NCBI GenBank assembly: GCA_964017195.1
Contig: OZ024898.1
Location: 18,323,304-18,387,303 of the forward strand
Origin: Siderastrea radians
Lineage: Eukaryota; Cnidaria; Anthozoa; Scleractinia; Rhizangiidae
Direction of reading: 5' to 3'
Length of the DNA stretch: 64,000 nt
Position numbers and translations under genes: made by a program
Notes under the pieces: model-generated
What the model saw: only the letters and a program-made list of their open reading frames with translations
What the model was told of the DNA's origin: nothing
Database searches by the model: none
Shown: positions 7,243 through 59,564 of the stretch, piece after piece
How the letters are laid out: every line of letters starts with the position of its first letter
Position numbering within the stretch: the stretch's first letter is position 1

Positions 7243-8799
7243 CTAGGGCCTGCTCTTGAGAGCGATTTGATCCTGCATTGGAAGCGTAGAAAGAGAAGGT
7301 AGTGACAGATTAATGCAATTGGGGTTGTTCTTGAGTGAACCAGAATGAAGCAGTGATAGGAAGTGGGCAGCACTCAGGTGATTGTGCGAGCGCGATAGTG
7401 TGTCTGCAGTGGTATTATCTGTAGTTTTAATGTAGCTTGAGGTTACTCTGAAGTTGTTAACTGCTGATATCCAGAAGATTTCTCGTGGCCACGCCATTAA
7501 TCGTTCTGATTTACTAGTTCTTTATCAAGCCAGGATTTTGTGACGGCATTGTCCATGTAGTTAACAATCCATTTATCTGACAGTTGTGTTCCCCATCGTC
7601 TAAGGGCTAGTAAGACCGTAAAAAGTTCCAACTCATTGATACGACAGTTAACATAGAACCAATTTTGCTGGTAGTGGCCACCACCACCCACTAGACTGGC
7701 ATCCATTGAAAATTCGGCAACTGATGTTGGTTCAGACGAAAAAGGTTTTCCCATTGAAGTGCTCCATGAAATCTGCCCACCACAAGATGTCTTTCCGCAA
7801 AGTTTCTGTCATTCGTTTCCTGTGTTAAGGCCGCTTTAAAGTGTTAATTGCATCAATGATTCGCCCAAGAATGTACGCCCACCATAGATGACACGCGCCG
7901 CAAAGTTCAGTTTTCCTGCTGATGACTGTAACTCCCGCTTTGTAAATTTAGATTTCGCCAATGTTTGACTTAGAAGAGCTCGGATTTCTCGCAACTTATG
8001 ATCGGGCAACCGAAGTTGTCTACAGTTGCTATCAATTTCTATGCCCAGATAAGTGAGACGCTGGCATGGACAAACAATTTTGTTCTAATTTACTGTCAGT
8101 CCTAAACGTTCAAGTAATGTTATGAGTTCCCAGAATGCTGTCCAACAGGTCATGTTTGGTGTCTGTGATGATGAGGAAATCATCTAAGTAGGTGACAACA
8201 AAGAAGCCCCTTCGTGACATCATTCGCGTGATCGATTGCGTTAAGCAGTGAAAATTTTCGGGGCTCCGTTTTGCTCCAAATGGGAGTTTAGTGTCATAGA
8301 GATATGTAAAAGTGTTATCGTCATGAAATTGCCATTTCAATCCCGTCGTTTTGTAATTTGATGGGTGGAATGGGACGTGGCGGTATGCACTTTTCAAATC
8401 AATTTTAGCCATGAAAGCGCCTTGCTTTATATTTGCTGTTACTTTGTCCACGGTGTCGTATGAATAGTGTTCACAGTTAGCATTCGAGTTCAAACTAGTT
8501 AAGTCGGGTCCGCTGCAATCATGAATAAGGCGAATGTAGGTCGAGTCTGGTTTTGGTATTGCCCAAAGGGCACTAACAATGGTTGGTTTTTCCGTTGTGA
8601 CGATATAGTTCCCCTGTTTTATTTCGGTCAAGATTTGTCGTTCCACTTGTTGTCGTACTGTCGATTCCGTGGCAGAGCGGTAATTGTTCACATTAACATC
8701 TTCTAGCTGCAAATTATCAGAAATGATTGTAATGCCATCCATTAGGAAGTCCCTGGCAATGGCCTCATGTAATTCTTTGTACCAAACGTCAATGTTCAA
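7243..8799 (-). pseudogene. DIRS-like reverse transcriptase-RNase H, frameshifted
   Basis: Read from 8799 downward, the first 229 codons are a DIRS/Ngaro-type reverse transcriptase. The segment has KIDLKSAYRHVPFHP (first catalytic Asp) and the YLDDF box. The RT thumb continues in a shifted frame across 8100-7760 (RLTYLGIEIDS, KRELQSSAGKLNF). The RNase H follows at 7754-7497 with SMDAS and then NYMDNAVTKSW, and its tail is at 7497-7243 (WPREIFWISAVNNF). At least two frame changes or stops break it, so it is not expressed as one protein. The tyrosine recombinase expected downstream is not visible below 7240. The rest of gag lies upstream (8796-9470), and the gag N-terminus is apparently at 24237-24596. 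Confidence 0.85.
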
Positions 8800-9470
8800 A
8801 GGAAAGGAGTGAAGAGTTGTCGGAGTTTGTTATACTCGTCCATCTTGTAGAGTAACTGGGGTTTGCGAGCCATAATAGTGAGCATATTCAGGGTGCTTCT
8901 TGCCACACCCTGGTGCAATGCAGATGTGCTGAAACTTGCAGCGTGGCCAATGACACCCGGTTGGTGAGTTGTAGAGCTTGCAAATAGGAGCTCTGTGGAC
9001 GATTTGCTGGCCCTTACCCCGGCGGGTGGGGTATGGTTTGACGGGAAGGTTCCTTGCCGGAATCTCGTGTGTAAATGTTGGGAATCACTGCCCCAGCGAA
9101 ACCCGTGGCGGTGTTGGAGTTTGCGGTATTCATTGTCGTAGAGAATAACGGACTGCCACGTGTGCTCTTCGATTAGCTCCAATACCTTAGCTATGTAGGC
9201 GAGGTAGTCTTGAATCGCCGTGACATCCATATTCTGACGCTTGAGAAGTACGTTTAGGATCTTAACGCTAGTCCCCATCCACTGCGAGAGCGTGATGGTT
9301 TCAAGTTGAACGCTCGCACAATGACCTGAGCGCCACCACTCGAACCTATCTCTTGTTCTTCTGGTTCAGTAGAACCTAAGTACATGTCCACAAAATCGGG
9401 AATGAGAAGGGGTTTCTCTTCCTTTTTACCTGCGGTTGGTTTTCCGAGGTACATGTGCGGGATTAAGGAG
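8796..9470 (-). pseudogene. DIRS-like gag, C-terminal part
   Basis: Two overlapping frames (9454-9254 and 9278-8796) give a gag-like protein: MYLGKPTAGKKEEKPLLIPD at its start, then EYRKLQHRHGFRWGSDSQHL in the capsid-like region. The first segment aligns with IYLKPRTGK in the gag of the second DIRS-type element (31.4 kb), where it sits about 120 residues from the N-terminus. The missing N-terminus is therefore expected upstream on the minus strand, but the sequence there (from 9471) is a satellite-like insertion edge. A frame change near 9260 indicates decay. Confidence 0.7.
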
Positions 9471-9875
9471 ATATGTCCAGGTTTGCTCGCAGCTGCGAAA
9501 ATTCCAAAATTTGCGAAAAATTGGAAAATTCGTCGAGTCAGTAAAAAACAGTAGAAGAGGAGGTTGAGAGGGCCCCGACAAGAGCTGTGATTTTTGCAAA
9601 AACTGCGAAAATTGCGAATATTGTAAGATCTGCGAAAAATTGGAAAATTTGTCGAGTCAGTGAAAACCTGTAGAAGAAGGGGTTGAGAGGGCCCCGACGA
9701 GAACTGTGTTTTTTGCGAAAACTGTAAAAATTGCGAATATTATAAAATCTGTGAAAAATTGGAAAATTTGTCGAGTCAGTGAAAAGCTGTCGAAGAGGAG
9801 GTTAAGAGGGCTCCAACGAGAGCTACGATTTTTACAAAACCTGCAAAAATTGCAAATACTGAACGCAATGTAAAG
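9471..9875 (+). repeat. Insertion edge plus 120-bp GCGAAAA satellite
   Basis: The edge ATATGTCCAGGTTTGC plus TCGCAGCTGCGAAAATT is followed by at least three units of about 119-120 bp (TTGGAAAATT at about 9521, 9640 and 9759). Each unit contains GTCGAGTCAGTGAAAA and GAGAGGGCCCCGACGAGA. The same edge occurs at 42381 (plus strand) and, inverted, ending at 24230. The array breaks the gag gene of the flanking DIRS-like element. Confidence 0.85.
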
Positions 9876-10160: not shown

Positions 10161-10166
10161 TTTCAG
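10161..10166. repeat. Target site duplication TTTCAG (left)
   Basis: TTTCAG directly precedes the left inverted repeat (TATGGAAAGCCATAACTTTC). An identical TTTCAG follows the right inverted repeat at 15781-15786. Confidence 0.85.
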
Positions 10167-10254
10167 TATGGAAAGCCATAACTTTCTTATGTGATCAGTG
10201 ATCTGTAGGTGGTGACGTTCTATCGTGATGTGGTGTAGTTTGGTCACGTTGTAT

Positions 10255-10530
10255 TTCAGTTGCGTTGTTATGTATTGTGGTTTTTTTATTACGTTATGAG
10301 GTTTTATCATTATGTGCTGTGGTGTTGTCATTACATGATGAGGTTTGGTCATTGTGTGATGCAGTGTTATCATTATGTGGTGTGGTTATTTCTTTATGTG
10401 GTGTGGTTTCATCATTATGTGCTGAGGTTATTCGATAACGTGTTGTAATCTCGTCATTATGTGATGTGGTTACTTTATTATGTGGTGCAGTTCCTTCTTT
10501 ATGTGGTTAACTCGTTATGTGATGCGGTTT
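10255..10530. repeat. 21-bp subterminal repeats, left TIR
   Basis: About 11-12 degenerate units of 21 bp with the core TCATTATGTGATGTGGTT. Because 21 is a multiple of three, they produce open frames with a 7-residue period (HYVLW..) on both strands. Arrays like this near transposon ends commonly bind the transposase; that role is inferred here. Confidence 0.85.
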
Positions 10531-10764
10531 TGCATTTATGACATTTATGTAATGAGGTTTTCTTCATGAAGCAATGTCACTTTCACTTCCGGTATCAAAC
10601 TATTACCCAGGCTTAACTCGTCCTGAAGAACCGGCGTAACCAGTTTTTAGAACGATCCTTGGACTCTTTGTGTGTAATACACAAAGACTGTAGGTACTTT
10701 GTGTAGCATACTTGACGTACTTTGTTGTTTTCAAGCACGTGGGAAGAAAGCATGCGAATAAAGC

Positions 10765-12710
10765 ATGGAGAATATTCTGAAAGAACTCGGCTTCGACCCT
10801 CTTATTCCGAAATTTTCCGCCGAGAGAATCCAGCCTGAAAACGTGTCAACATTGTCAGATGAACAGCTTTCTCGTCTCGGTGTAACAACGATCGGGGATC
10901 GCATTCGTCTCCGTGGCCTTTCTGCCGCCGCTGAGAAGGATCGCCAGTCAGTGGCTGCAGATGTTCTTCATGAACGCATGGCTCTATTTTCCGGACGTAA
11001 TAACAGAAGGGGTGACCGCAAAAGAAAAGCTCTCGCAAGGCGGTCTTGGACAGTCAGTTTCGTTTGTGTTACTGATCGCCATCAATCAAGAATTCCCTCA
11101 GCTACAGAAAAACAAGTTCTGTTTCACGCTGGCCTCGGCCTGAAGAAAATCAAATTAGACCTGGAAGACGACGAGAACAGTGTGTTAGAGAAGATTACTT
11201 CTGGCGAAAAGGATGATCATGGTGAAATTAAAGGGTTTCCTCAATTAAAGGATTGTGGAGGATTCGAGATTCTGTACTGCGTCTCAGGGTGTAAGGAACT
11301 GAAGCCGTTAAACTGTTGCTGGACAGCTAAAGATCTGAAGGCAAATGTCGGGGCCCAATCAAAACTTTTTTTAAGACCTATCCAGAAAAACCTATCTACA
11401 GTCAGCGTTCTCCCCCAGAACAGGTCACAAGTTAAGGAGAAATGTAACATCTGTAATAAAGATGTGTTGATGAGAGACCTTCGATATCATGTTTTCATGT
11501 GTAAATCAAGGGAAGGTTTGCTTAGTTCAGATTCAGATGATGACAGCTTAAATCACTCTGTGTTTTCTCAAAGGAGCATGTTAGTGCAAGAAGGCTATCA
11601 CCAGGATCAAAATGCCTCTTCCAGCTCAGTTCAAGAAGGCCAACACCAGGATCAAAATGCCTCTGGAAGCTCTGTTCAAGAAGGCCAACACCAGGATCAC
11701 AATACCTCTGGAAGCCCTTCACTGTCAGGCGACCCCATTGCAGTTGCCGAAGTGGTTGACTTGGTTGACAATAACGACCAGCAGCCAGGTGGGGTTGATG
11801 GTGATCTTTTTCTCATAATAGAGTATCAAGTTCTGAAATTTGAGTGTACTTTTACAAAATATTGGGCTTTTGTGAGCATGAAATTTATGGTGATTGTACA
11901 GTGACAGTTTCAATTACTGGTATAGAAGAGTAGTAGTCTTATTCTATGCTTGGAAATGTGTGAATATCTATGTGCTCACATGCACGTGTTTTGCATATTT
12001 CATTTCAGATTTGTGAAGCCATGCCAATGTTTCTTCACCTGTTTAGGCCAAGTGACGCCAGTGTACTGAGTTTGAAAATGGTTACAACCTTATTGAAGCC
12101 CAACTTCAGTGAATCTGGCTCTAACAGAAGACGTTTTGAAAATGAGGTGTATGCTGCATTTACCAAGTACTTGAGAGAAGCTGCCAGTAGGAAGTCCATT
12201 GTCACTACAGTGTATTGTATATTTCAGTATTCCACCGGAAAGTTTTAATTATCTTTACAGAGTGAATAATTAAACAGAAAACCCTTGTTGTGTTTAACCT
12301 GGAGTTGAAGGGGCTTAAAATTTGCCTCCCAAGCAAAATCTTAGTCCATAAAGCGTAAAACAATTATCTAGGACCAGGGAGACCTTGTTATTGTATTTAC
12401 TTCATTGCACACATAACAACTGTTTTCTTACATTCATTATATAATTATAGGTGGCAGAAGAGGTGATGTTCGCCTAAGTCATGTATTGCAGTTTGCCACA
12501 GGATCTGACGAGGAGCCTATGCTGGGTTTTGAACTCCATCCATCCCTTATTTTCACAGAAGTGATACCTTCATTTATTCCCACTGCAAACACATGCAGCA
12601 ATACCTTGTATTTGCCACATGCAACAAGAAGTAAACCTCTTCCGGAAACTGAAGCCTTGTTTGATTTGTATGACTATGCATTTGTTAATGCATATTTTGG
12701 TAACAAGTAA
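10765..12710 (+). CDS. SAM domain - HECT-like E3 ubiquitin ligase (transposon-borne)
   Basis: Exon 1 starts at 10765, about 100 bp inside the left TIR. Residues 1-55 form a SAM-like helical domain (LSDEQLSRLGVTTIGDRIRL). A pair of cysteines (CNICNKDVL) followed by HVFMC near residue 230 looks like a zinc finger, and then three copies of a QEGxHQDQNASxSSV repeat of about 19 residues. A donor near 11790 is likely. Exon 2 starts at 12009 after TTTCAG. Exon 3 runs 12451-12710 and contains LQFATGSDEEPMLGF and PTANTCSNTLYLP, the pattern of a HECT C-lobe whose Cys accepts ubiquitin. Most of the HECT N-lobe (E2-binding) is not visible and the exon 2 donor is unclear, so it may be truncated. The coordinates give the span and include introns. 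Confidence 0.65.
11575..11715 (+). repeat. 57-bp coding tandem repeat in the HECT-type gene
   Basis: Three units of 57 bp (GTTCAAGAAGGCCAACACCA and onward) encode a QEGHQHQDQNASGSS-like linker. The units are very alike, so the array expanded recently and probably varies in copy number among copies of the element. Confidence 0.8.
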
Positions 12711-13035
12711 GCTGTCTGTGGAGGTTTAGCCTGTCTTCAAGTTCCTGTTGGAAAGATTTAAATGTTGTGAAAATTTGATGTATTTATTCTTTAATAATGG
12801 TATTACGTTCTGTTAAAATTATTAGTAGACCCTTTCCTGTGCAGTTGTGGGCGTTTTAAATACTGCCTTGTTGTTGATTAAGTGCCTATTGCAGGCGAAC
12901 CATGTTAACCACCAATAATTTGTGCTGAACATATTTTTCTCAACAGTCAATGTACGGTTTCTGCATGACTTGATACTGTTTTGCATTAACAGTGTTGCAG
13001 AATTCTTTTTGTATCGTTAATACCAGCCTATGTCC
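12711..13035. other. 3' region of the SAM-HECT gene
   Basis: AT-rich sequence between the HECT-like stop codon and the duplicated block. No ORF or repeat supported; probably 3' UTR of the transposon gene. Confidence 0.5.
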
Positions 13036-13970
13036 AATGTAATCTGCAGCACCTTCTTTGCATCAAATTAAGGATGTCATTGATAATGTCTGTTGTGCCT
13101 ACTATCCATCTTAGATGCCCTTTGGATAGGATTTTTGGCCAGCTTGACAGACTGTTTTACATAATCTTAGGTTTATTGACTGCAAGTTGACGTCAATATC
13201 TGTAACGTTAACCATGCGATGAATGGATTTCAAATTGAAATCATTTCAAATATCCTCAAATAATGTCATCTCCTACATTAAAATATCATCCTATACTGGT
13301 TATAAACATTATCTCCAGGATAAATTCAGAAAAAAAAATCCCTTTTCAAATGACATCTGAGACGGATAGTAATGATCTCACGGTTCTAGGGCAGTTCAGG
13401 AGAAAACTAGGATCCCCTAGGGCTACTGTAGTGACAATGTTTGCTTACAAATTGTTCAAATGTATTGAGAACACATTGCCGCCCCCCCCCCCCCCCCCAA
13501 CAAAAAAATACAATTAAATTACAAATTTCATTCCATTGCTTTTAATTACAAATTGAAACAATCAGTTGCAGAGTGACTGTCCAAATGCACAGACCTTGCC
13601 ACCCCCCCTCTACCTGTTTCTTTTACAGTGGATAATTACTAACATGTTATAGTTTAAGATGAGGCAAATATTGTTATTGTTCAAGTTGTCCTGCTTTATC
13701 CATGCATTCATGCCTGGAGATATAGTTGAGTTATGCTTTTCTTCCTTTGAACCCAAAATGATAAGGACAATGTAAAATTGCATGTTGTCAGTTCTTACAG
13801 AGAATAATATGAAAGCTATACAACTGGTGTCACCGTGAAAAGTACAACCATAAGTGTCACTGTTAATAAAGTTAACATCATTGCTGTTGTTCTGGTGCAA
13901 GTTCTCAAACTGCCAGTGTATAACACTTGATTTTTTCAGCGGCTTTCAAGAAATGTTCCACCCCATAATT

Positions 13971-15289
13971 TTATGACGACCAAGTGGAAGGCACTTGACT
14001 ATCCAGTTGTATCTTGCATTCATCAGTAAGAGAAGTTGAAAGAGATTGTAGAATGGGCCGGCTTTCAGACTCGTCTTCCCTGTCGTTGTCTATAATGCCT
14101 TCTACCCCATATTCCTGTATGGCTGATCCCACTAATTCAATACCCAATGGATTTTGTAGCTGCCCAGAGACCCACATACGAATTGGCGAAGATCTTGTAG
14201 TGCGCATCCTGTGGCGTGACCATGCACTACTCCAGACTTTCAGCTTCTCATTAATTACTGGCAGGTAAACATAATGAAGGGCAGCAAGGTGAATCTCATT
14301 CAAAGGATCAAGGAATCCTTCATCTTCCAGGAAGTAAAAAAGCCTATAGTGTAGTCCTAAAACACCCTCAAAAACATCACGCCATAAGCGTTCAATTCTT
14401 TGATTATGGGTGCTTTTTCCGACTATAGCACTTCCTCTATTAATCCCTCTCTTAGATATCATGTATTCGGCCATAGCGACATTTTCCATCCCCTTGTCAG
14501 TTCTAATTCTGCTAGGTAAGCCAAATTCATCTACTGCACACAGAAAATGCTTTAATATGTTTCGGCTTTGTTGTTGTCCGAGCATGATAGCATAACAGGT
14601 AGGCGGCTGAAGCCATCAATGCCACCTATAACTACCAAATGCCAACGCACAAGCTTATGATTAGTGTCTATGTGCCATAAGTGATTGGGACCTTGAACAT
14701 TGTAGGTGCGTCGACGAAGACGGCCTCCCTTCCTGTTTTCAACTCCCTCATGATCGACTCTGTGAATGCTGTCACGGAGTCTCATTCTTTGAACCTTTAT
14801 TCCCCGATCTGCAAGTATTTGCTTCAACAGCACTTCTCCACAAGAAGGATATTCCCTTGTTATTTCCTCCACAACACTGTCTAGATCTCTCTCTGTTATC
14901 TCTGTAAACTGCAACTGACTGAGGCCGTAACGATCCATCCTACGGTAGACTGTACTCTCTGAAACGCAAAGTAGTGATGCGATGTCCTTAATTTTGAAGC
15001 CATCTTCCAGGTAGCTTTCTAAAACTGACTTCGAAATCAAATACTCAGGTGCGCCGCAGCCTTGTGTTCCTGGTTTTCGTGGCGGCGAATAGCTTCCAAA
15101 GTTTAGACACTCTAACCTTAATTTCATCATTGTGTTTCGATCGTTCACCCCCAAACATTGCATTTGGTCGACAGATAACTTGGATATTTGATCCAATGTA
15201 ATCTTTTCACGTTGGAAGTTGTCGAGAAGATGTCCAAGATGCAACTTTTCAAGCACATTTGACAAATTATCGTTTCTCACTCCCGCCAT
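13971..15289 (-). pseudogene. SAM-HTH-DDE integrase (transposase), 1-nt frameshift, copy 1
   Basis: Read from 15289. Residues 1-55 are a SAM-like domain (LSVDQMQCLGVNDRNTMMKL). An HTH follows around residues 85-115 (KIKDIASLLCVSESTVYRRM), and then the integrase core: WHIDTNHK (first Asp), RIRTDKGMENV (second Asp) and NQRIERLWRDVFEG (Glu). The first frame ends at 14552 with ..NNKAETY and a stop. The next (14585-13971) continues at KHFLCAVDEFGLPSRIR after loss of about one base near 14555. The core belongs to the rve/IS3-like family with the THNQRIERLWRDV signature. Its neighbour is the convergent SAM-HECT gene. Both copies share the break, so it predates the duplication. Confidence 0.88.
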
Positions 15290-15317
15290 CTTTGCTTGTT
15301 TGGAAGAGTAGGCACTG

Positions 15318-15780
15318 GGATCGTTCTAAAAACTGGTTAAGCCGGTTCTTCAGGACGAGTAAAGCCTGGGTAATAGTTTGATACCGGAAGTAAAAGTGAC
15401 ATTGCTTCATGAAGAAAACCTCATAAACATAAATTTAAAACCGCATCACATAACGAGTTAACCACACAAAGAAGGAACCATATCATATAATGACAAGATT
15501 ACAACACGCTATCGAATAACCTCAGCACATAATGATGAAACCACACCACATAAAGAAATAACCACACCACATAATGATAGCACCGCATCACACAATGACC
15601 AAACCTCATCACGTAATGACAACACCACAGCACATAATGATGAAACCTCATAACGTAATGACAAAACCACAATACATAACAACGCAACTGAAATACAACG
15701 TGACCAAACTACACCACATCACGATAAAACGTCACCACCTACAGATCACTGATCACATAAGAAAGTTATGGCTTTCCATA
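15318..15780. repeat. Right terminal inverted repeat of the 5.6-kb transposon
   Basis: About 463 bp, the reverse complement of 10167-10658, with 21-bp subterminal units at about 15430-15700 (core CATAATGACAAAACCAC). It ends GGCTTTCCATA before the TSD TTTCAG. The left arm is roughly 30 bp longer through extra repeat units. Confidence 0.9.
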
Positions 15781-15786
15781 TTTCAG
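15781..15786. repeat. Target site duplication TTTCAG (right)
   Basis: Matches 10161-10166 exactly and directly follows the right inverted repeat. Confidence 0.85.
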
Positions 15787-16137
15787 ACTGTTACACTTTT
15801 GTCCTTTTTGTGATGTTTTACGTGGTCATGGAACTTTTATGACCAAGATTAGAAATTCCTGTGACGTTGCATCAGTGAAAATTAAAATTATATGAAGGAA
15901 AGATAGTCGGTAGAATGAAATAATATTGCCGTGGAAGTTTTAGTTGAAATCTTGCTCAATATCCTTGACCCCAAATCAGCAATGACTTGTAATTTACAGC
16001 ACTCAATATGTGTGAAGGGCCTTTAGTCAAATCCAGCTGAGAATTTTCATGTCTCGCATTCCCTAAGACTGTTTCATGTGCCATATGGTCTTTCATTAGA
16101 AAGATTATCATTTCCATGTAAATGTAAATGATGTAAA

Positions 16138-16410
16138 TGTTTGAATTGATGGCCAGTCAGCAGAAAAAAGCATCTTTGAACTGTGGAAGTACGGGTAGAA
16201 ATCAAAAGGACATCTTTCACATGTCCAGCCGTGAAAAAGCATGGGTAGTACAGCATTTCTCAGCTCCCGAAAGTAAACTACTGGTGCAATTGACATGTTT
16301 GAATTAAAGGTCAGTCAATAGTCAAAAAACATCCTTGAATTGCGGAAGACGTCTTCCACATTTCCAGACTGAAAAAGCATGGGTAGAACAGAATTTCTCA
16401 GCTCCCAGCT
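16138..16410. repeat. About 155-bp tandem repeat, two units
   Basis: Two imperfect units contain GTTTGAATT..GGCCAGTCA, CTTGAACTGTGGAAG, CATTTCCAGACTGAAAAAGC and TTTCTCAGCTCCC. The family recurs at 20510-20782 (the duplicated block) and once at 44990-45130. Unknown dispersed repeat. Confidence 0.75.
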
Positions 16411-16791
16411 TGTCGATGAAGAATCAAAGATTATAGCAAACATATAGCAGTGCTGAAACATTTCTTCTCGCTTGTTTTCCTGTTTATGATCCCTAAAGAC
16501 TATCACAAAGGACTGAAGTTGTTTCCTGTTTCTTTTTGATGGCTTTTGTTACACTTGAAATGGCTAAACTTTTGCTACTGATGAGTGTAAACAAGCTAGA
16601 GTAGCGAAGACGTATAAATCTGCCAGGCCGTTGCCAAGCTGCCAGGCCTGCTTGAGAGAGACTGGGATAAAATCGCCCCCAATTCTCTGCTCGTGCATTC
16701 CCCCTACATCTCGAGGGATGTTTCATAAATCTTTTAGAACAAGGGATAATCAAAGATTAGATTTACGTTACATCTCGCGCTTGGAGTTTAA

Positions 16792-17386
16792 GGTGATTCC
16801 ATCGAAATGGAAGGAATATTTAAAATTTTCTAAAACTTGGTCCACTTGGTAATTATCTTTAGAACATTTCAAAAATGCAATAAAAAATAGGGGTCACCGT
16901 GCTTGTTTTTTCACAAACCCTAGTAATCAGAAATGAGAACTATAATTGCTTTAAAAAGTCATTGCTTGTATTGAAATATTGGAGCAGTTCACCATAACAG
17001 ACATTTATCTTGTATTGTATACTATTTTAGCTGAACAGGAATCAAGATTATGGAAAAAAATTGAAAAAATTGCCGCATGCGTACATGCCCTGCTGCACCT
17101 AAAGATGTGTTCTTTTCGGCATTCAAATAAAAATATCTCAAAGCAGAATTTTTAACTTTTTTTGAAATCGCGATATATTGTACTAGACCGTGTGCCATTT
17201 GAATTTATGTCTTAAAAAATGGGGTCACCGAGCTCGTTTAGGAGAAAACGACCATTTATTTCTCTGAACAGCTCAGCTTTCATAGAAAACCTATAAAATT
17301 CCGAAGGTGCGCGCGCTCGTGCACGCGCTAATCACGCAAGAAATGATGCGTAGAAAGGATGCGTAATGCAATTGACTGGAATCACC
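16792..17386. mobile_element. TTAA-flanked element A (595 bp)
   Basis: Starts GGTGATTCCATCGAAATGG after TTAA (16788-16791) and ends CTGGAATCACC before TTAA (17387-17390). No coding capacity. TTAA duplications are typical of piggyBac and Kolobok families; the tip GGTGATTCC is not enough to choose. The right half (17220-17386) is closely related, inverted, to the left half of element B. Duplicated copy at 21164-21758. Confidence 0.85.
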
Positions 17387-17413
17387 TTAAGGTGATTCCA
17401 TTCAATTGCATTG

Positions 17414-20152
17414 AATGTAATCTGCAGCACCTTCTTTGCATCAAATTAAGGATGTCATTGATAATGTCTGTTGTGCCTACTATCCATCTTAGATGCCCTT
17501 TGGATAGGATTTTTGGCCAGCTTGACAGACTGTTTTACATAATCTTAGGTTTATTGACTGCAAGTTGACGTCAATATCTGTAACGTTAACCATGCGATGA
17601 ATGGATTTCAAATTGAAATCATTTCAAATATCCTCAAATAATGTCATCTCCTACATTAAAATATCATCCTATACTGGTTATAAACATTATCTCCAGGATA
17701 AATTCAGAAAAAAAAATCCCTTTTCAAATGACATCTGAGACGGATAGTAATGATCTCACGGTTCTAGGGCAGTTCAGGAGAAAACTAGGATCCCCTAGGG
17801 CTACTGTAGTGACAATGTTTGCTTACAAATTGTTCAAATGTATTGAGAACACATTGCCGCCCCCCCCCCCAACAAAAAAATACAATTAAATTACAAATTT
17901 CATTCCATTGCTTTTAATTACAAATTGAAACAATCAGTTGCAGAGTGACTGTCCAAATGCACAGACCTTGCCACCCCCCCTCTACCTGTTTCTTTTACAG
18001 TGGATAATTACTAACATGTTATAGTTTAAGATGAGGCAAATATTGTTATTGTTCAAGTTGTCCTGCTTTATCCATGCATTCATGCCTGGAGATATAGTTG
18101 AGTTATGCTTTTCTTCCTTTGAACCCAAAATGATAAGGACAATGTAAAATTGCATGTTGTCAGTTCTTACAGAGAATAATATGAAAGCTATACAACTGGT
18201 GTCACCGTGAAAAGTACAACCATAAGTGTCACTGTTAATAAAGTTAACATCATTGCTGTTGTTCTGGTGCAAGTTCTCAAACTGCCAGTGTATAACACTT
18301 GATTTTTTCAGCGGCTTTCAAGAAATGTTCCACCCCATAATTTTATGACGACCAAGTGGAAGGCACTTGACTATCCAGTTGTATCTTGCATTCATCAGTA
18401 AGAGAAGTTGAAAGAGATTGTAGAATGGGCCGGCTTTCAGACTCGTCTTCCCTGTCGTTGTCTATAATGCCTTCTACCCCATATTCCTGTATGGCTGATC
18501 CCACTAATTCAATACCCAATGGATTTTGTAGCTGCCCAGAGACCCACATACGAATTGGCGAAGATCTTGTAGTGCGCATCCTGTGGCGTGACCATGCACT
18601 ACTCCAGACTTTCAGCTTCTCATTAATTACTGGCAGGTAAACATAATGAAGGGCAGCAAGGTGAATCTCATTCAAAGGATCAAGGAATCCTTCATCTTCC
18701 AGGAAGTAAAATAGCCTATAGTGTAGTCCTAAAACACCCTCAAAAACATCACGCCATAAGCGTTCAATTCTTTGATTATGGGTGCTTTTTCCGACTATAG
18801 CACTTCCTCTATTAATCCCTCTCTTAGATATCATGTATTCGGCCATAGCGACATTTTCCATACCCTTGTCAGTTCTAATTCTGCTAGGTAAGCCAAATTC
18901 ATCTACTGCACACAGAAAATGCTTTAATATGTTTCGGCTTTGTTGTTGTCCGAGCATGATAGCATAACAGGTAGGCGGCTGAAGCCATCAATGCCACCTA
19001 TAACTACCAAATGCCAACGCACAAGCTTATGATTAGTGTCTATGTGCCATAAGTGATTGGGACCTTGAACATTGTAGGTGCGTCGACGAAGACGGCCTCC
19101 CTTCCTGTTTTCAACTCCCTCATGATCGACTCTGTGAATGCTGTCACGGAGTCTCATTCTTTGAACCTTTATTCCCCGATCTGCAAGTATTTGCTTCAAC
19201 AGCACTTCTCCACAAGAAGGATATTCCCTTGTTATTTCCTCCACAACACTGTCTAGATCTCTCTCTGTTATCTCTGTAAACTGCAACTGACTGAGGCCGT
19301 AACGATCCATCCTACGGTAGACTGTACTCTCTGAAACGCAAAGTAGTGATGCGATGTCCTTAATTTTGAAGCCATCTTCCAGGTAGCTTTCTAAAACTGA
19401 CTTCGAAATCAAATACTCAGGTGCGCCGCAGCCTTGTGTTCCTGGTTTTCGTGGCGGCGAATAGCTTCCAAAGTTTAGACACTCTAACCTTAATTTCATC
19501 ATTGTGTTTCGATCGTTCACCCCCAAACATTGCATTTGGTCGACAGATAACTTGGATATTTGATCCAATGTAATCTTTTCACGTTGGAAGTTGTCGAGAA
19601 GATGTCCAAGATGCAACTTTTCAAGCACATTTGACAAATTATCGTTTCTCACTCCCGCCATCTTTGCTTGTTTGGAAGAGTAGGCACTGGGATCGTTCTA
19701 AAAACTGTTTAAGCCGGTTCTTCAGGACGAGTAAAGCCTGGGTAATAGTTTGATACCGGAAGTAAAAGTGACATTGCTTCATGAAGAAAACCTCATAAAC
19801 ATAAATTTAAAACCGCATCACATAACGAGTTAACCACACAAAGAAGGAACCATATCATATAATGACAAGATTACAACACGCTATCGAATAACCTCAGCAC
19901 ATAATGATGAAACCACACCACATAAAGAAATAACCACACCACATAATGATAGCACCGCATCACACAATGACCAAACCTCATCACGTAATGACAACACCAC
20001 AGCACATAATGATGAAACCTCATAACGTAATGACAAAACCACAATACATAACAACGCAACTGAAATACAACGTGACCAAACTACACCACATCACGATAAA
20101 ACGTCACCACCTACAGATCACTGATCACATAAGAAAGTTATGGCTTTCCATA
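17414..20152. mobile_element. Left-truncated duplicate of the SAM-HECT/integrase transposon
   Basis: Corresponds to 13036-15780 of the complete element. It keeps the integrase gene and right TIR but lacks the left TIR, so it is not mobile by itself. It arose by segmental duplication, not by transposition, because its flanks are duplicated as well. Confidence 0.9.
18343..19661 (-). pseudogene. SAM-HTH-DDE integrase, frameshifted, copy 2
   Basis: The translated product is identical to copy 1 (245-codon and 204-codon frames at 19661-18924 and 18957-18343), including the same 1-nt frameshift. Two silent substitutions (near 18710 and 18862) lie in the second frame. Confidence 0.88.
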
Positions 20153-21762
20153 TTTCAGACTGTTACACTTTTGTCCTTTTTGTGATGTTTTACGTGGTCA
20201 TGGAACTTTTATGACCAAGATTAGAAATTCCTGTGACGTTGCATCAGTGAAAATTAAAATTATATGAAGGAAAGATAGTCGGTAGAATGAAATAATATTG
20301 CCGTGGAAGTTTTAGTTGAAATCTTGCTCAATATCCTTGACCCCAAATCAGCAATGACTTGTAATTTACAGCACTCAATATGTGTGAAGGGCCTTTAGTC
20401 AAATCCAGCTGAGAATTTTCATGTCTCGCATTCCCTAAGACTGTTTCATGTGCCATATGGTCTTTCATTAGAAAGATTATCATTTCCATGTAAATGTAAA
20501 TGATGTAAATGTTTGAATTGATGGCCAGTCAGCAGAAAAAAGCATCTTTGAACTGTGGAAGTACGGGTAGAAATCAAAAGGACATCTTTCACATGTCCAG
20601 CCGTGAAAAAGCATGGGTAGTACAGCATTTCTCAGCTCCCGAAAGTAAACTACTGGTGCAATTGACATGTTTGAATTAAAGGTCAGTCAATAGTCAAAAA
20701 ACATCCTTGAATTGCGGAAGACGTCTTCCACATTTCCAGACTGAAAAAGCATGGGTAGAACAGAATTTCTCAGCTCCCAGCTTGTCGATGAAGAATCAAA
20801 GATTATAGCAAACATATAGCAGTGCTGAAACATTTCTTCTCGCTTGTTTTCCTGTTTATGATCCCTAAAGACTATCACAAAGGACTGAAGTTGTTTCCTG
20901 TTTCTTTTTGATGGCTTTTGTTACACTTGAAATGGCTAAACTTTTGCTACTGATGAGTGTAAACAAGCTAGAGTAGCGAAGACGTATAAATCTGCCAGGC
21001 CGCTGCCAAGCTGCCAGGCCTGCTTGAGAGAGACTGGGATAAAATCGCCCCCAATTCTCTGCTCGTGCATTCCCCCTACATCTCGAGGGATGTTTCATAA
21101 ATCTTTTAGAACAAGGGATAATCAAAGATTAGATTTACGTTACATCTCGCGCTTGGAGTTTAAGGTGATTCCATCGAAATGGAAGGAATATTTAAAATTT
21201 TCTAAAACTTGGTCCACTTGGTAATTATCTTTAGAACATTTCAAAAATGCAATAAAAAATAGGGGTCACCGTGCTTGTTTTTTCACAAACCCTAGTAATC
21301 AGAAATGAGAACTATAATTGCTTTAAAAAGTCATTGCTTGTATTGAAATATTGGAGCAGTTCACCATAACAGACATTTATCTTGTATTGTATACTATTTT
21401 AGCTGAACAGGAATCAAGATTATGGAAAAAAATTGAAAAAATTGCCGCATGCGTACATGCCCTGCTGCACCTAAAGATGTGTTCTTTTCGGCATTCAAAT
21501 AAAAATATCTCAAAGCAGAATTTTTAACTTTTTTTGAAATCGCGATATATTGTACTAGACCGTGTGCCATTTGAATTTATGTCTTAAAAAATGGGGTCAC
21601 CGAGCTCGTTTAGGAGAAAACGACCATTTATTTCTCTGAACAGCTCAGCTTTCATAGAAAACCTATAAAATTCCGAAGGTGCGCGCGCTCGTGCACGCGC
21701 TAATCACGCAAGAAATGATGCGTAGAAAGGATGCGTAATGCAATTGACTGGAATCACCTTAA

Positions 21763-22409
21763 GGTGATTCCATTCAATTGCATTGCGCATCCTTTCTGCG
21801 CATCATTTTTTGCGTGATTAGCGCGCGCACGAGCGCGCGCGCGTTCGGAACTTGATAGGTTTTCTATGGAAGCTGAGCTGTTCAGAGAAATAAATGGTCG
21901 TTTTCTCCTAAACGAACTCGGTGACCCCACTTTTTTATTCCATTTATTTAAGGAAAATACGACTTTACATGATATATTCAAATTTGAAGAACTTTTCATT
22001 ATTCAGTTTTGAAATATTCCGGTTGATTCACTACTACAGCCAGATTTTAGGCGTTTCACTGGAACCGTGCGGACGCTCGATTTGCCTATTATTTCAAATT
22101 AGTTTCATTGTTACGGCAATTTTAAGACGTTTTACTGTAACATTGTACTTCTATCATAAGAATAATGCTTATATTTCATTGCTAGGTATAACTTTGTTGA
22201 AGTAATGGGTGTCACTAGTACAAGGATAGGTTTTTTTAATATTGCTGTCTAAAGATAGCAAAGTACCTATATACTACAGCCCCGTAGCGTGAAATCAGAC
22301 ACGGTGACCCCCTCTTTTTATTTTATTTTTTTAATGTACTAGGGGTAATTAGTAACTGTGCAAAGTTTCAACAAATTCTCATTACAACTTCTTTTTCGAT
22401 GGAATCACC
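21763..22409. mobile_element. TTAA-flanked element B (647 bp)
   Basis: Starts GGTGATTCCATTCAATTGC after a TTAA shared with element A (21759-21762) and ends TTTTTCGATGGAATCACC before TTAA (22410-22413). A and B meet head to head, making a palindrome with arms of about 170 bp rich in GCGCGC. Nothing coding inside. A 23-bp stub of B (17391-17413) ends copy 1 of the duplication. Confidence 0.85.
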
Positions 22410-24236: not shown

Positions 24237-24596
24237 TTAAGTCGACTCTAGTCGTATCTCCCTGCGCTTGGCCCGCTGGTGGGATTGTTGAATGGAAGCT
24301 TTGCGGTAGGTCATCAAGACCCCACAGCTAACCAGGGCATCTAAGCCCCCTCCATTGTCCAACTTCTTTATAAGCTCGTCGAGGCCTTGGTCCGCGAGGC
24401 TGGTTGTTGTTATTGGCTCCGTTAATTTCGCTGGTTGAGCTGGTGCTCTCAGCTCGTTCACAGCTTTGGACAAAAGTTTGTTTTGCCCTTTTGTTAAACC
24501 AAGCTCGGCTATGTCGCTCGGTGAGAGGAGTTTCACTGCTTCCATCACATGGAGGTCTTGGTCCTTCAAGATGGTAGCTGTTTTTGGTGTAAGCAC
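24237..24596 (-). pseudogene. DIRS-like gag, N-terminal part (about 119 residues)
   Basis: Starts MLTPKTATILKDQDLHVMEA and has a SAM-like helical block (LLSPSDIAELGLTKGQNKLL), then LDELIKKLDNGGGLDALVS. This matches the layout of the first 100 residues of the gag at 31433 (an [16 protein letters not shown] block, then [17 protein letters not shown]). It stops at a TAA next to the inverted satellite edge. It ends where the gag piece at 9470 begins, so I infer these are two halves of one gag gene. Confidence 0.65.
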
Positions 24597-25006
24597 ATGT
24601 AGCCAAAGCTTGAGTTACGACTGGAAATTAATAAAATTTTGTGAAATAAACAGTGTTTCCTTGTTTGTGACGTACTTGCTATCGGCGGCAAAAATTCGCT
24701 CTTCGAGCGAGAATAACCGTCTTTCTAATTTTTGCTCCTAATTAGTATTATAATTATGAAAGGTGATACACAATTCACCCGCACCAAGCATTTAAATGAT
24801 CTATATTTCTAGAAATGCCCCATTTCCACTCACAATTTCCTCAAATCTGAATGAATCCATAGTCGAAAAACAACTATAAGCCCGAAAAGTTCCATCTTCC
24901 CCAACGTTTGTCACCATAAACGACAATATTTTGAGCTTCTTGAACCTGAAATCAAATGTCGGTATTCGACCGCCGACCTCTGCGCACAAATATATGCAAA
25001 TATGCT
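24590..25006 (+). repeat. Inverted repeat, left arm
   Basis: Reverse complement of about 25175-25565 at high identity (for example CCGCCGACCTCTGCGCACAA near 24970 against the same motif inverted near 25200). The arm abuts the start codon of the gag piece at 24596. The pair could be inverted terminal or 5' regions of a DIRS-like element, or an independent foldback. Confidence 0.85.
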
Positions 25007-31100: not shown

Positions 31101-34100
31101 CCTGTACCTTCCTACGCCCCCCCCCCCCCACTAACCCCCACTCCCTCAGCGCTATGCGATTTCCACACATTTTTGGCGCTCGCTCATGTCCCAGCCCACT
31201 CTTGTCTCACAACTTCTGCTTGTCATCTAAGGTCATGTTTTAAAATTACAAATAAAACATATGTTTTATGAAATTTTAACCTGGTGTACATTAGAGACAT
31301 AACGACTTGGTCATGCAAACGCAAACGCGTAAGAAAAAAAAAAGAAAAATAATAAAAATACAGTTCTCCTCGCACGCCTTTCACTAGCTCGCTCGATTTC
31401 TGTTTCTGGATCTTTACTTTAAATTTTCATCCATGGATGAGGAAACCCAGGCGTGGTGCGAGGCCACTGGCTTCACTGGCCACACTGTAAAATCTCTTGT
31501 CAAAGAGGAATTTATCACCATGCAATCCATAAAGGCCATGACGGCCGATGTTATATCAAGCCTCGACCTATCAATGGCTCAACGCTGTCTACTAAAGAAA
31601 GCTGTACTCACAGCACAATCAGCGCTTTCTCCCCCGACCACGGCTGGCGCTGGCGGTGCCGCCGTCTCTGGCCAACTGGCAAGTGAGCTTGACGCATTAG
31701 AATCGTCCATTCTAGCCCTCTCGCAGAACAAAGAAGGTGACAAGGACTCGGAAAAAACTGGCCAAGGTAAGACCAAGTCTTTACCTCGCGCCCACGAGGC
31801 TATTTATCTCAAGCCCCGTACCGGCAAGACGGACGCGAAAGTAAACCCGCTTGAACTGAGCTATTCTGAGTTTATAGCGGGTTACTTCTCGATTTTGGAC
31901 GGCTTGCTGCAAAGCGGAGAGCACCTCCAGGCTCAACAGCTCTGCCGTTATCTGAAATTTTTATCCAAGAAAGCAATCGCTTTCACCACCACGGCTATTC
32001 TTCAATTCGATGACGAGTTTCGTGGCATGGTCGCGCGTGGCGAGGCGGCTTACGACGATCATACATCGCTCAATGATCTGCAAGCCCACCATTTCGACTC
32101 GTCGGCGGTGAAGACAACTACCACTCGGCCCAAAATCGCGGTCGTCCCCGTCCAGGTAATTCCCAAGCTGGTGGTTCGAAGTCTTTCGGCAAACACTGCT
32201 ACAAGTGGAACGAGGATTCCAATAACTGTGCAGGGTGCAATTACACACACGCGTGTCTCGTGTGCGACTCCACGCAATACGGAGCCGTATTTCATCGCTC
32301 TCAATCTTCCCAAGGGAAAAAATCTTCCTCCAATTGACCAGTTACAACGGCAGCGGCCGCCTCAACCTCTTCAATCGCTATTTCTGCATCGTGCTCGACT
32401 GTCTTCTCTCCAGACCCTGATCTGCAAAACATTTGCTCTCTTACGCGCCATTTCGACACTTGGTGTCGAGAAATGGACTCTGACCCCGGCGACAAAGATT
32501 TTATTCTCTCGGGCATCGCACATGGTTTTCATCTTGTCAACGACCTCTCTACTGTTTCGTCAGCGGACTGCAAAAATTATCGGAGCGCCGAAAACCCTGA
32601 TGTTAAACCAGCCCTCGACAAACTTTTTCATGACGAACTCTGTTCCCATCGAATCCAAGAAGTTCCCCACAAACCGCTTCGCGTCAACGCCATCGGGTGC
32701 GTTATAAAGAAAGATTCAGGCGACCCTCGACCCATAACAGACATGAGTCGTCCTCTAAACAACTCTGTCAATGACTACATATCCTGCGAATCTTACCGCT
32801 ACAAGACTATCGATGATGCTATCGTTCTCATGCATCCAGGCTGCTACTTCGCCACCGTTGACATTAAATCTGCTTATCGCTGGGTACCCGTTTATCCCCC
32901 TCATCGCACACTTCAAGGATTCCGCTGGGCCTTCAATGGACCTTACAAATTCTTTACAGACAATTTCCTCTGTTTTGGTCTCAAAAATGCGCCCAGTATT
33001 TTTCACAGGATTTCCTGCGCAATTACCCGTATGATGGCTCGCAAAGGCTTCACTTACATTGTTAACTATTTGGACGATTTTCTCATCGTTGCTTCGTCAC
33101 GCGAGGAGTGCCTTCGTGCACAACTGACACTTATTCATCTTCTCCACTCACTTGGCTTTCAAGTTAATTGGTCTAAGCTCTCTGGTCCCTCTCCACGGGT
33201 CAAATTTCTCGGGATTATTTTAGACTCAATTGCAATGCAGGCATCTATACCCGAGGACAAAATTTCATCATTAGAAGATCAACTTAATTTCCTTCTTTCA
33301 AAACACAAAGCTTCCAAGCGGGAATTACAAAGAGTTGCTGGCCTCATGAACTTTCTGGCTAAAGTGGTTAAAGGGGGACGAACCTTCTTGCGTCGCGTTC
33401 TTGACCTTTCTACAAAGCCCGTATCACTTCCGCCCTTCGCAAGGACTTCTGTTGGTGGCTAGACTTTTGTCGCGTGTTTAATGGCCAGGCTATTAGTATT
33501 TCCTACTCGCCTATTATCGAACATGCTTACACAGATGCTTCCCTTTCGGGTTTTGGGGCACACTGGCGCAATCATTGGCTTGCCGGAGTTTGGTTTTCAG
33601 ACACACAAGTGCCGCCGAGTCTTCGCTTGTCGGGAAATTGGATTCACACATTCAACTGGTCACGAAATCCCGTCGCAACTCCAGGCGAACATTAACTATC
33701 TAGAATTGTATGCGGCGTTACATGCAATCCGTAGGTGGTCTCCGCACTGGGCGAACTGTCACGTTTGTTTACACACGGATAATACACAGGCCATGTCTTT
33801 CTTGAATAAGGGCTCGTGTAAAAACACTACCGCTATGGATTGGCTACGGGAAATCTTCTGGTTATCAGCCATCTACAACTTTCGCCTGACCCCTTGCCAT
33901 ATTAAGGGCCTAGAGAACGTTTTCGCCGACCACTTATCTCGTCTTACAGAAACATATACAGAGTGACTACAGTCTTCTTGTATTGGACTAATTACGCGAT
34001 TTTCTCCTTCTTTCCTAGACCCTCGTGGTTCCCTTGATGACGCCGTTGCTTTCGCGATTTCCAACGCTTATGCCTCCTCCACTCTCGCCACTCGCAAGTC

Positions 34101-37100
34101 TCAAGTCCTGAAATACATCCAATTTTGCCGCCTGCTTCAGACGTCCCCTCTTCCCGTCTCGGTCACGAATCTTTGTCGCTACTGTGTCTTCTTGGGGCGC
34201 ACAATGAAGTACTCGTCCATCGTAAACTATTTGGATGGTATCCGCTGGCTTCATGTCATGTTCGACTACCCACCGCCTCCGCTTTCCCACTGTCGCGTGC
34301 AGTTGACCCTGCGAGGCTTGAAACGTCTTCTCTCCGCGTCGGTTCAACGCAAGCTCCCGATTACATCGTCCATTCTTCTGGCTTTACGAAATGTCATGGA
34401 CTTCTCCTTGCCACTTCATCGCGCGCTCTGGGCAGCCTTCCTTCTTGGTTTCTTCAGCTTCTTTCGCAAGTCCAATATCATCCCTCCAAGTCACTCGCAA
34501 TTCTCTCCGAACAAACACCTGTCACGCTCCGACTTCCATTTTCACCACGTGGGGCCTCATCGTCTCTGTCAAATGGTCCAAAGTTCTTCAATTCCGCGAA
34601 AGGACACTTCTCATTCCATTGGTTTCCATACCGTCTCATGTTTTATGTCCAGTGCAAGCTCTTCGCGAGTTCTTCGAAATGTGCCCAGCTCCAGCTTCAA
34701 GTCCAGCCTTTGTTATCCCTACGGCTACTGGCCTTCGCTCACTCTCTTACAGCTCATTTACTAAACACTTAAAAGATCTCCTACGCCTTGCAGGTTTCTC
34801 TCCCAACAACTACTCCGGGCACTCATTCCGCCGTGGAGGAGCCACATATGCCAGCTCACTCGGTATTTCCCACGAGTTAATTCAACTTCAAGGTGACTGG
34901 GCTTCTACCGCTTACGTTGAGTACCTAGCAAGACCACTCCGACAGCGCTACACCTTGGCGGAACAGGTTGCGACTCAAATTGCAACTTCTACATCCACCT
35001 CTGACTCTCTACTTTTACAGTAAATTAATGTTCCTTGAACTGTGTTGGCGTGCTTCTCTTTTGGACGGCTTTCGGCCTCAGGACAAAGAACATTTTATTA
35101 CAGAACTATTGGACTTTGGAACAATTTAGATCCCTTTTTAAAATCAAGCTGTTCAGTTCAAGTTTTTAAACGTATCTTAAAGAGTAAGCTTTTAGACAAT
35201 TTTGTAAATACTCCCTAAATTTTATTCATTTTTAGTATTTTGGCGACTACAAAGTTTAGATAATGTTGTAAATGTTTCTTAAATTTGATTAATTTTGATT
35301 GTATAGTTATTAGTAACTTAGTAATTTAAGTAATTGTTCCTGAAAAGCCCCATTGGGGAGGTAACAATAAAGTATGTAGTATGTAGTATGTAGTATGTAG
35401 TAATTATTACCTGTCAATAAATAAACTGCCAGTCTGTCACGCCAACACTGCTTGATGCTTAACTGTCTCGAACGTGTCCATTATGTGTAAGATAAAACGA
35501 CTAGGTTTATCTGGGTATAATTGACAGTGCGGTAACGTACTTCCGCTAATTGTCTAGTATGAGTTTTATCCCGCCGCGTTGCGAAACAGTCAGTTCTCCT
35601 CGCACGCCTTTCACTAGCTCGCTCGATTTCTGTTCCCTCCCTACCCACCCTTTTTCCTTTTTTATTTTTGTTTTTGTTGTGTCATATTGTGTATTTTTTA
35701 GTTAGTTACCTACGGCAGGGGTTTGTGATTGTATTGTTTGATTATGGACGGCTTTCGAAATTAATTATTACCTGTCAATAAATAAACTGCCAGTCTGTCA
35801 CGCCAACACTGCTTGATGCTTAACTGTCTCGAACGTGTCCATTATTGTGTAATAACCCAAAGTACACAGAATACATTACTAGGATCGTGATTTTGTTAAA
35901 ACAACAAAACTAAACCAGGTGTACTTACATGGCGTACTCCCACTTGTAGTTGCACAAATACCAGAGTTGTGTAGGTGTGGACAAACAACGAGGAGCTCTT
36001 ACATGAGATAGCCCATAGTCTGCTCCCAAGACTACCCCCATCTTCATTATACGAATATCGCTGGCAGGGAAACACCAGTATAAAAAGGGCTGTGGGGTTG
36101 TCTAGGGAGCAGACGAGAGAACCCTTAAGACCCTTTTGTTTTTAGTACGTAGTTAATACAAGTAACATTGCTTTTACAGAATATGACACCGTTCATGGCC
36201 GCATCTTAGCAGTCAACATGGCACATATGCGAAAGAAGCGTCAAACTCCTGGAAATGAATCGCTGGACGGAAACGTGTTTACAGGAATAGAACAGGCTAA
36301 CAGAGGTAAATCAGAAAAACACTTGAAGTTTAATTCAATGGCGTTTGTAGATTTGTGAATGCTATCGCAAAACGTCTTGCTTGGTTGTGGTTCTTGTCTA
36401 TGTGCTCAAGGAGGTACCAAAAGAGGACATTAACAACTGACCCTTTTGCAAAGATCCGGTCATGGAACACATTTTATTTTTGCACGTTTTGTCCTTGTCA
36501 TGTTTCCTTTGGAAATACTATTACTGTTGGTCAGTAATACCCTCTGTTCAGGGAACAAATGTGCACCAGTGCTTATTTAAATGCTTAGCAAGGTTTTTGT
36601 TTTGTAAGTGTATTTTACTTCTAAATGTAAGTTTCTAAGCAAGATTAGTCAATTTAAAAGTAAAGTACGTACAAAGGACACGATTTAGAAATATTATCCA
36701 AGAGGTTGAAGACTTCAACAGCTGTCACACGTCTCTGACTCATAACTTAGTGTCTTAAACATATATTTTCGTTGTCGGTCGATTGTTGCAGAAGACTTTT
36801 TAAAGTGATGATTTGCAAAGCCTAGCTTAAACTTCAGGAAAATATGTATATAGCTCAGCTCAAAAATGGCGTTCAAAAGTCCGATTTGCACTTAAGCCTT
36901 AACGGCGGTTAACTCACTGGCAACACATCAAGAGAACGCTGCACCTCGAAACCAGCAAACCAGCAAAGGGTTACCCCCTCCCCCCGCCAATTAACTAATA
37001 ATAATAGTGATAATAAGTAAGTAAATAAATCACATGAATACGCGCCTTTTACAAAGAGTTCTTATTTGTTTTGTTTGTTGTCTTTTCTTTCGCTCCTTTA

Positions 37101-59030: not shown

Positions 59031-59036
59031 GCGGAG

Positions 59037-59564
59037 AAAATTATTTTCAAAGATCAACCGGGTTAACTGAACCAAGAGAGGTGTTTGCACCACCTTGCCC
59101 TCTCTAAGCAAGAGGACAAGAGCAATAATAGCCTTCTTTGTGTCAATGTTCGGATAAAGTAGCTCAATGTTCTCTAAACATTGGATCAGTTCACCCGAGT
59201 CACGTAATACCGTAGACATGCAAATAGATGGTTTAACTAACTCATCCACAAAAACACTAATAGGCCTAGTGATATAGGAATGAGAGGCCGCAATACGCCT
59301 CCCAGCCATAGGTGACATATGAATCTTGGGAATAATGTAAAATTTAGCAGGATCGAGATTCCTAGGATTATCGTCAAGGCTACGAAGAAACTTATGTGAA
59401 TTTGGAGGAAGAAAGCTAGAGTAACATTTAACAAGCCTATCTCTGGTCTCAATTACCTTTTGACGTCTAAGAGTCTAGTCATCTTTCGTGACTTTAGCAT
59501 AAGACTTAGTGTCATTAAGGCGGACATTAAGGTGTTTGAGCGTTTCTTGTTCTACTCATTCGGT
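59037..59564 (-). pseudogene. Penelope-like RT, central part
   Basis: Reads PPNSHKFLRSLDDNPRNLDP, then AKFYIIPKIHMSPMAGRRIA, LYPNIDTKKAIIAL (first catalytic Asp) and LTRLIFENNF, typical of the Penelope RT palm. One in-frame stop (near 59475) and frame changes show decay. Confidence 0.8.

Follow-up and report, generated by a model that had tools for sequence, protein, structure and literature searches.

The element described here is probably a decayed animal cut-and-paste transposon of the IS3EU/GingerRoot type, whose family encodes a SAM-HTH-DDE transposase together with a SAM-finger-HECT ligase. The product of the HECT gene is very probably a transposon-encoded HECT E3, because both the anatomy of the element and the proteins of bivalves and a hemichordate point to it. 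The anatomy is that of the one copy bounded by terminal inverted repeats (TIRs) in the window, by which we mean the whole analysed stretch of 64,000 nt (Table 1).

Table 1. Features of the element and its surroundings, in window coordinates.
Feature	Position	Strand	Basis or remark
Left TSD, TTTCAG	10161..10166		Read from sequence
Transposable element	10167..15780		Single unit, both genes enclosed
Left TIR	10167..10658	+	492 nt, begins TATGGAAAGCC
Degenerate 21-bp units in left TIR, about 12	10247..10507	+	Self-match periodicity
SAM-HECT exon 1	10765..11800	+	SAM, conserved middle part, C2HC finger, low-complexity linker; ORF and tblastn
SAM of HECT gene	10777..10911	+	Profile match, ORF residues 6-50; Pfam SAM_1 21.4 bits, just under cut-off 23
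Putative C2HC zinc finger, TRAFD1/XIAF1-like	11437..11502	+	Weak, 17.5 bits, under cut-off 27
Site of missing HECT N-lobe	11785..12008	+	About 180 residues present in relatives; tblastn and alignment A1
HECT exon, end of N-lobe	12009..12186	+	Coding similarity begins at 12009
Last HECT exon, C-lobe	12451..12710	+	Pfam HECT 31.4 bits, cut-off 23.9; stop 12708-12710
Cys codon in PTANTCSN	12594..12596	+	Expected ubiquitin-accepting Cys; motif read from sequence
SAM-HTH-integrase transposase gene	13971..15289	-	Two overlapping ORFs, frameshift between
Integrase core rva_4 (PF24764)	14151..14704	-	69.6 and 168.6 bits on the two ORFs, cut-off 26
Helix-turn-helix of transposase	14927..15013	-	Pfam HTH_23 27.8 bits, cut-off 24.6
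SAM of transposase	15140..15268	-	Pfam SAM_1 24.3 bits, cut-off 23
Right TIR	15318..15780	-	463 nt, own 21-bp array
21-bp array in right TIR	about 15482-15679		Self-match periodicity
Right TSD, TTTCAG	15781..15786		Read from sequence
Second, partial copy of right half	17414..20152		Tandem duplication

The termini, TATGGAAAGCC at the left and GGCTTTCCATA at the right, have the form TATGG..CCATA and thus the TA..TA ends of IS3EU/GingerRoot, and the TTTCAG on each side is a 6-bp TSD, as is usual in that lineage, left by a single insertion. The initial annotation had claimed this TSD and TIRs of ~0.5 kb, and both claims held. In one gapped alignment the TIRs are 91% identical across 492 nt, and an inverted-repeat search resolved them into arms of 320 nt (10167-10486/15461-15780, 95% complementary), 64 nt (10477-10540/15428-15491, 88%) and 107 nt (10552-10658/15318-15424, 97%). 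The self-match of the TIRs is 0.63-0.69 at shifts of 21, 42 and 63, against a mean of ~0.33 across shifts 5-69. Two convergent genes, as previously described, lie within this one TIR/TSD pair, the HECT ORF on the plus strand and the integrase ORF on the minus strand; their starts, which had been put at 100-30 bp inside opposite TIRs, are 106 nt from the left one and 28 nt from the right one. When inverted repeats of at least 20 nt were searched for, the genes were found to be framed by the terminal ones only.

The transposase ATG is at 15287-15289. The first of its two ORFs aligned with residues 47-291 of the relative P0066 in a tblastn search and the second with residues 286-501, which places the frameshift between them. 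An rve/IS3-like core with D, D and E motifs had been proposed, and we located all three codons (D at 14666-14668, D at 14496-14498, E at 14391-14393) within the PF24764 match, which makes this an IS3/IS481-like DDE transposase, as in IS3EU/GingerRoot. A D-to-E spacing of 34 residues is shared by 91 of the 115 relatives in which the motifs were found (140 were looked at). SAM and HTH occupy the region before the core, and no HHCC domain is among the 25 of 26 matching Pfam families listed. The predicted model of P0066 (mean pLDDT 69.6) is weakly nearest to IstA, TnsB and retroviral integrases, with a best E of 1.7e-4. An in-frame stop at 13971-13973 shortens the C-terminus of the window protein, and the relatives continue past it.

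The HECT gene begins in an ORF at 10762-11904, with its ATG at 10765. The donor of exon 1 (11800) was placed by eye, without a transcript, and the in-phase acceptor used for the spliced query (12018/12019) was also picked by eye. That exon 3 is HECT had been left to a profile check with PF00632, and the match above cut-off supports this prediction, although it spans just profile positions 232-283 of 306. The Cys context TANTCSN is there as described, and [AS]NTC recurs in 33 of 65 HECT matches. The E2-binding N-lobe was not recovered by sequence search in the window copy: three pieces of it, used as tblastn queries window-wide, gave no match below E 0.27. As the N-lobe is gone, the ligase of this copy cannot work as written.

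The right half of the element and its flank were copied in a tandem duplication of 99.8% identity (13036-17413 and 17414-21785). The partial copy, which has the same flank, was made by this duplication, not by a second insertion. To judge from its sequence, the window copy encodes neither protein intact and is dead. The missing N-lobe, the frameshift, the in-frame stop and the duplication had gone unmentioned in the initial annotation.

A SAM domain had been reported at both N-termini. Profile matching finds one in each gene, the transposase scoring above and the HECT gene just below the SAM_1 cut-off; the HECT relatives likewise fall on either side of it (P0002 25.4 and P0016 28.9 bits above, P0003 22.1 and P0005 19.8 below). 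Profiles made from the SAMs of relatives (11 sequences each, with the window's sequence added to each searched set) match both genes. Those from the HECT relatives find their own gene and both copies of the integrase ORF, the original and the duplicated one, but nothing else better than E 0.1 among the 730 window ORFs of at least 40 aa. The HECT-SAM profile matches 127 of 141 integrase sequences at E ≤ 1 (best 45.0 bits, median of the hits 32.8, window integrase 30.1), and the top solved structures are BICC1 (35.6), ANKS6 (34.6) and tankyrase-1 (32.0). In the reverse direction, the integrase-SAM profile matches 34 of 66 HECT-side sequences at the same threshold (best 36.9 bits, window HECT 35.0, median of the hits 26.2), with tankyrase-1 (34.6), tankyrase-2 (32.2) and then CNK2 leading the solved structures and BICC1 at E 0.2. 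By these scores the two SAMs are not clearly mutual closest relatives, and we do not claim a recent SAM duplication inside the element. Since the two SAM families are about equally similar to each other and to the best solved SAM, SAM-SAM pairing is plausible rather than proven. The SAMs of tankyrase, BICC1 and ANKS6 form head-to-tail assemblies, which makes homo- or co-polymers of the present SAMs plausible as well, and a meeting of ligase and transposase through them is a plausible prediction.

These observations suggest the following scheme. Transcription of each gene would start at a promoter in the adjacent one of the near-identical TIRs and run inward, so that both proteins would be made together. 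The transposase would bind the 21-bp TIR units, which are two helical turns long and so would lie on the same side of the DNA. Contacts between SAMs would line up or stack the transposase along the array. The ligase would enter the complex by its own SAM; recruitment by this route is a serious possibility, with the case for it nearly balanced. It would then ubiquitinate the occupants, most likely the transposase itself, or else chromatin or repair proteins of the host that sit at the element ends; that the transposase is the main substrate is a tentative suggestion. Ubiquitin tagging could curb or stop the transposase, remodel the complex after strand transfer, or call repair. The scheme as a whole, namely a widespread animal transposon lineage whose own HECT ligase co-assembles with the transposase via matching SAMs on 21-bp TIR arrays, with tagging of the transposase or of end proteins built into transposition control, is offered as a speculative model. 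The interpretation in the initial annotation is partly supported overall: the HECT identity of exon 3 and the SAM at the start of both proteins are supported, whereas the idea that the SAMs bring the two proteins together and ubiquitination regulates the process is a hypothesis.

Alternatively, the ligase might serve as a counter-defence that targets silencing or repair proteins of the host for degradation, its SAM binding host SAM proteins or only itself. The HECT-SAM profile scores of BICC1, ANKS6 and tankyrase-1 are close to that of the median integrase SAM and exceed that of the window integrase, and the TET/JBP genes of fungal IS3EU are thought to counter silencing, according to PMC12730594. 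However, the best integrase SAM scores higher than any solved SAM, and we consider the counter-defence explanation unlikely.

It could also be argued that the transposon picked up a SAM-HECT gene from a host, and that this gene travels as a passenger without a role in transposition. The HECT of the window copy is decayed, and the annotations of bivalves, the hemichordate and corals list its relatives as ordinary proteins of the host. Furthermore, these relatives (65 at E ≤ 1e-3, scoring being limited to the 7995 candidates with the most shared words) are far outnumbered by those of the integrase (1911 at E ≤ 1e-30, of which the best 120 were listed; a second search listed the best 120 of 947 matches), and many related elements may therefore lack HECT. 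On the other hand, both genes start a short way in from the TIRs and together take up the element, both proteins have a similar kind of SAM, and Cys and N-lobe motifs are retained in named proteins of bivalves, the hemichordate and a coral (P0043). SAM and Cys occur together in 16 of the 65 HECT matches, all 16 with the N-lobe motif; the 25 matches without SAM are partly fragments and partly a HECT lineage with a different N-terminus (e.g. P0051). The predicted model of P0014 has both HECT lobes and the C-lobe Cys, so that, as modelled, the relatives include a complete HECT fold. The SAM-middle-finger-HECT layout is found in named proteins of Mollusca and Hemichordata, the complete ones coming from bivalves and one hemichordate only and none from corals, where the named relatives P0043 (Porites) and P0059 (Acropora) are HECT without SAM in the listed protein. 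Named HECT relatives recur within a genome, with three in Saccostrea and three in Solemya. If the transposon family does encode its own ligase, some repeated "HECT domain-containing" genes of bivalves and corals may be transposon genes. Cluster member counts were not taken as copy numbers, as copies and repeated sequencing are inseparable in them.

The other observation against a passenger comes from a second lineage. The reading frames of the HECT ORF P0024 and of the integrase ORF P0073 extend beyond the start in the upstream direction without a stop, and they have a common translated stretch there (SFGYFFIIFGAYFIIFGGFFDMIV and TFGDNFIIFGALFVIFGAVCIMII) with a 7-residue period, which would equal 21 bp. 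In a comparison of translated sequences covering 80 pairs (4 HECT by 20 integrase proteins with an upstream extension), this pair scored 67 and the next best 22; none of 2000 shuffles reached 67, and the other 79 pairs showed no upstream similarity. Because the window TIRs have the same period, we read the stretch as a common TIR, i.e. as TIR-like DNA preceding both HECT and integrase genes in this lineage as well. The initial annotation had named a host gene captured once as a refuting outcome; the layout in Mollusca and Hemichordata and this TIR-like DNA speak against it, and a one-time capture from a host seems an unlikely origin for the HECT gene. We regard the passenger explanation as rather improbable.

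Other data sets were less informative. A HECT cluster and an integrase cluster apparently lie on the same contig twice, where their longest-contig values (given per cluster, not per member; six equal values in all, spotted by eye) are both 1,466,850 or both 468,268. Both genes recur within a genome, so their presence together on a long contig carries little weight. The equal values 2,885 and 2,370 were discarded, as their sources differ, and 62,650,966 and 43,197,688 are chromosome-sized and uninformative. Among viral contigs, none of 20 pattern matches to the integrase alignment and none of 10 to the HECT alignment were confirmed, and a TIR 20-mer had no match. Among bacterial and archaeal genome contigs, 3 of 27 pattern matches were confirmed as integrase loci, all in one sponge-symbiont bin. 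Six HECT queries gave no match in these pieces of just 3.4-4.2 kb, and one of them (L002) runs into a retroelement, by our reading of its translation. The loci being this short, and one ending so, the lack of a HECT match says little either way.

Copies of the SAM-HECT gene that lack the N-lobe might instead be neo-functional and make SAM-only inhibitors of transposition. Window ORF1 runs for 380 aa without a stop and keeps an intact SAM, and P0001, the cluster that contains it at 90%, counts 8 member sequences, taken here as a bare number; however, the N-lobe is retained in every relative with SAM and Cys, simple decay suffices as an explanation, and a short product is very unlikely. That the HECT gene and the integrase come from two nested or adjacent elements is scarcely credible given the single TSD pair, the terminal inverted repeats that alone frame the genes, and the P0024/P0073 upstream match.

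A family of IS3EU/GingerRoot type with its own HECT ligase can be compared with several known systems. IS3EU has been in Repbase since 2013 and forms one lineage with GingerRoot; PMC10045372 describes the same TA..TA ends, usually 6-bp TSDs and IS3/IS481-like integrase transposase, to which the window element adds the SAM-HECT gene, and the terms "hect" and "ubiquitin" do not occur in the text of that paper. Fungal IS3EU with TET/JBP genes have TAYGG..CCRTA ends, TIRs of >30 bp, a 6-bp TSD and transposase and alpha-kinase genes in opposite orientation, but in place of a HECT ligase they carry an alpha-kinase and a TET/JBP dioxygenase (PMC12730594, where "hect" does not occur). The term is also absent from the text of PMC4255032. 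We found no report of a HECT gene in a transposon among the papers listed in searches of the open-licence literature, several of which covered only the top of the match list and were judged by title and start of abstract; a Repbase entry may exist. The modelled full HECT fold of the relative and the C-lobe Cys region resemble those of Smurf1, HUWE1, UBR5, AREL1 and E6AP, but the element family has an N-terminal SAM, a middle part and a C2HC finger, and the setting is a mobile element. Ubiquitin-pathway parts have been described in transposons as tag-removing proteases (Ginger1) and as a RING (Chapaev/RAG1). Ginger1, also an integrase-type transposon with a ubiquitin/SUMO-pathway domain, has an OTU or Ulp1 protease fused to its transposase, from which its authors propose a role of the ubiquitin pathway in transposition (PMC2836005), and its TSD is 4 bp rather than 6 (PMC10045372). 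RAG1 bears an E3 RING, so an E3 ubiquitin ligase domain is tied to a transposase there too, but in RAG1/Chapaev it lies inside the transposase, and the superfamily is a separate one (PMC4411706). A separate, complete HECT ligase and a transposase with the same kind of SAM would provide a simple two-protein system in which to assay the role of ubiquitin. In summary, the window element has the ends and the TSD of IS3EU and resembles the fungal elements in its two-gene layout, although the enzyme beside the transposase is another one, a HECT ligase.

The right half of the element and its flank are taken in by a 4.4-kb tandem duplication (window 13036-17413 and 17414-21785), the two copies of which are 99.8% identical. 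This duplication may be real, or it may be an assembly (haplotype) artefact. Immediately to the left of the element lies a separate tandem repeat of ~119 bp (window 9494-9858), with copies that are 85% identical.

Reverse-transcriptase sequences and stretches that resemble SAM by eye were also found elsewhere in the window.

Features of the window outside the element
Feature	Position	Strand	Support
Reverse-transcriptase ORF	8113-8829	-	RVT_1, 48 bits
Short ORF, SAM-like stretch by eye	24240-24614	-	only E 0.39, with one integrase-SAM profile
Retroelement with reverse transcriptase and later ORFs	31388-34761	+	RVT_1, 70 bits
Reverse-transcriptase ORF	57955-59040	-	RVT_1, 45 bits

A Pfam search with the short ORF returned no match. 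The start of the first ORF of the retroelement also appears SAM-like by eye, and no profile supported this resemblance.

The eukaryotic integrase family of the element is present at three loci, L001-L003, on contigs LWTN01000118, LWTN01000139 and LWTN01000127, which are filed as a bacterial metagenome-assembled genome, that of a Cycloclasticus symbiont of a sponge. These loci are probably sponge DNA inside a bacterial bin. By eye, L002 additionally bears a Gypsy-like retroelement.

On the ligase side, the protein searches recovered P0051, P0059 (the latter from Acropora muricata) and their relatives, which constitute a related HECT family with an N-terminus that is devoid of SAM.
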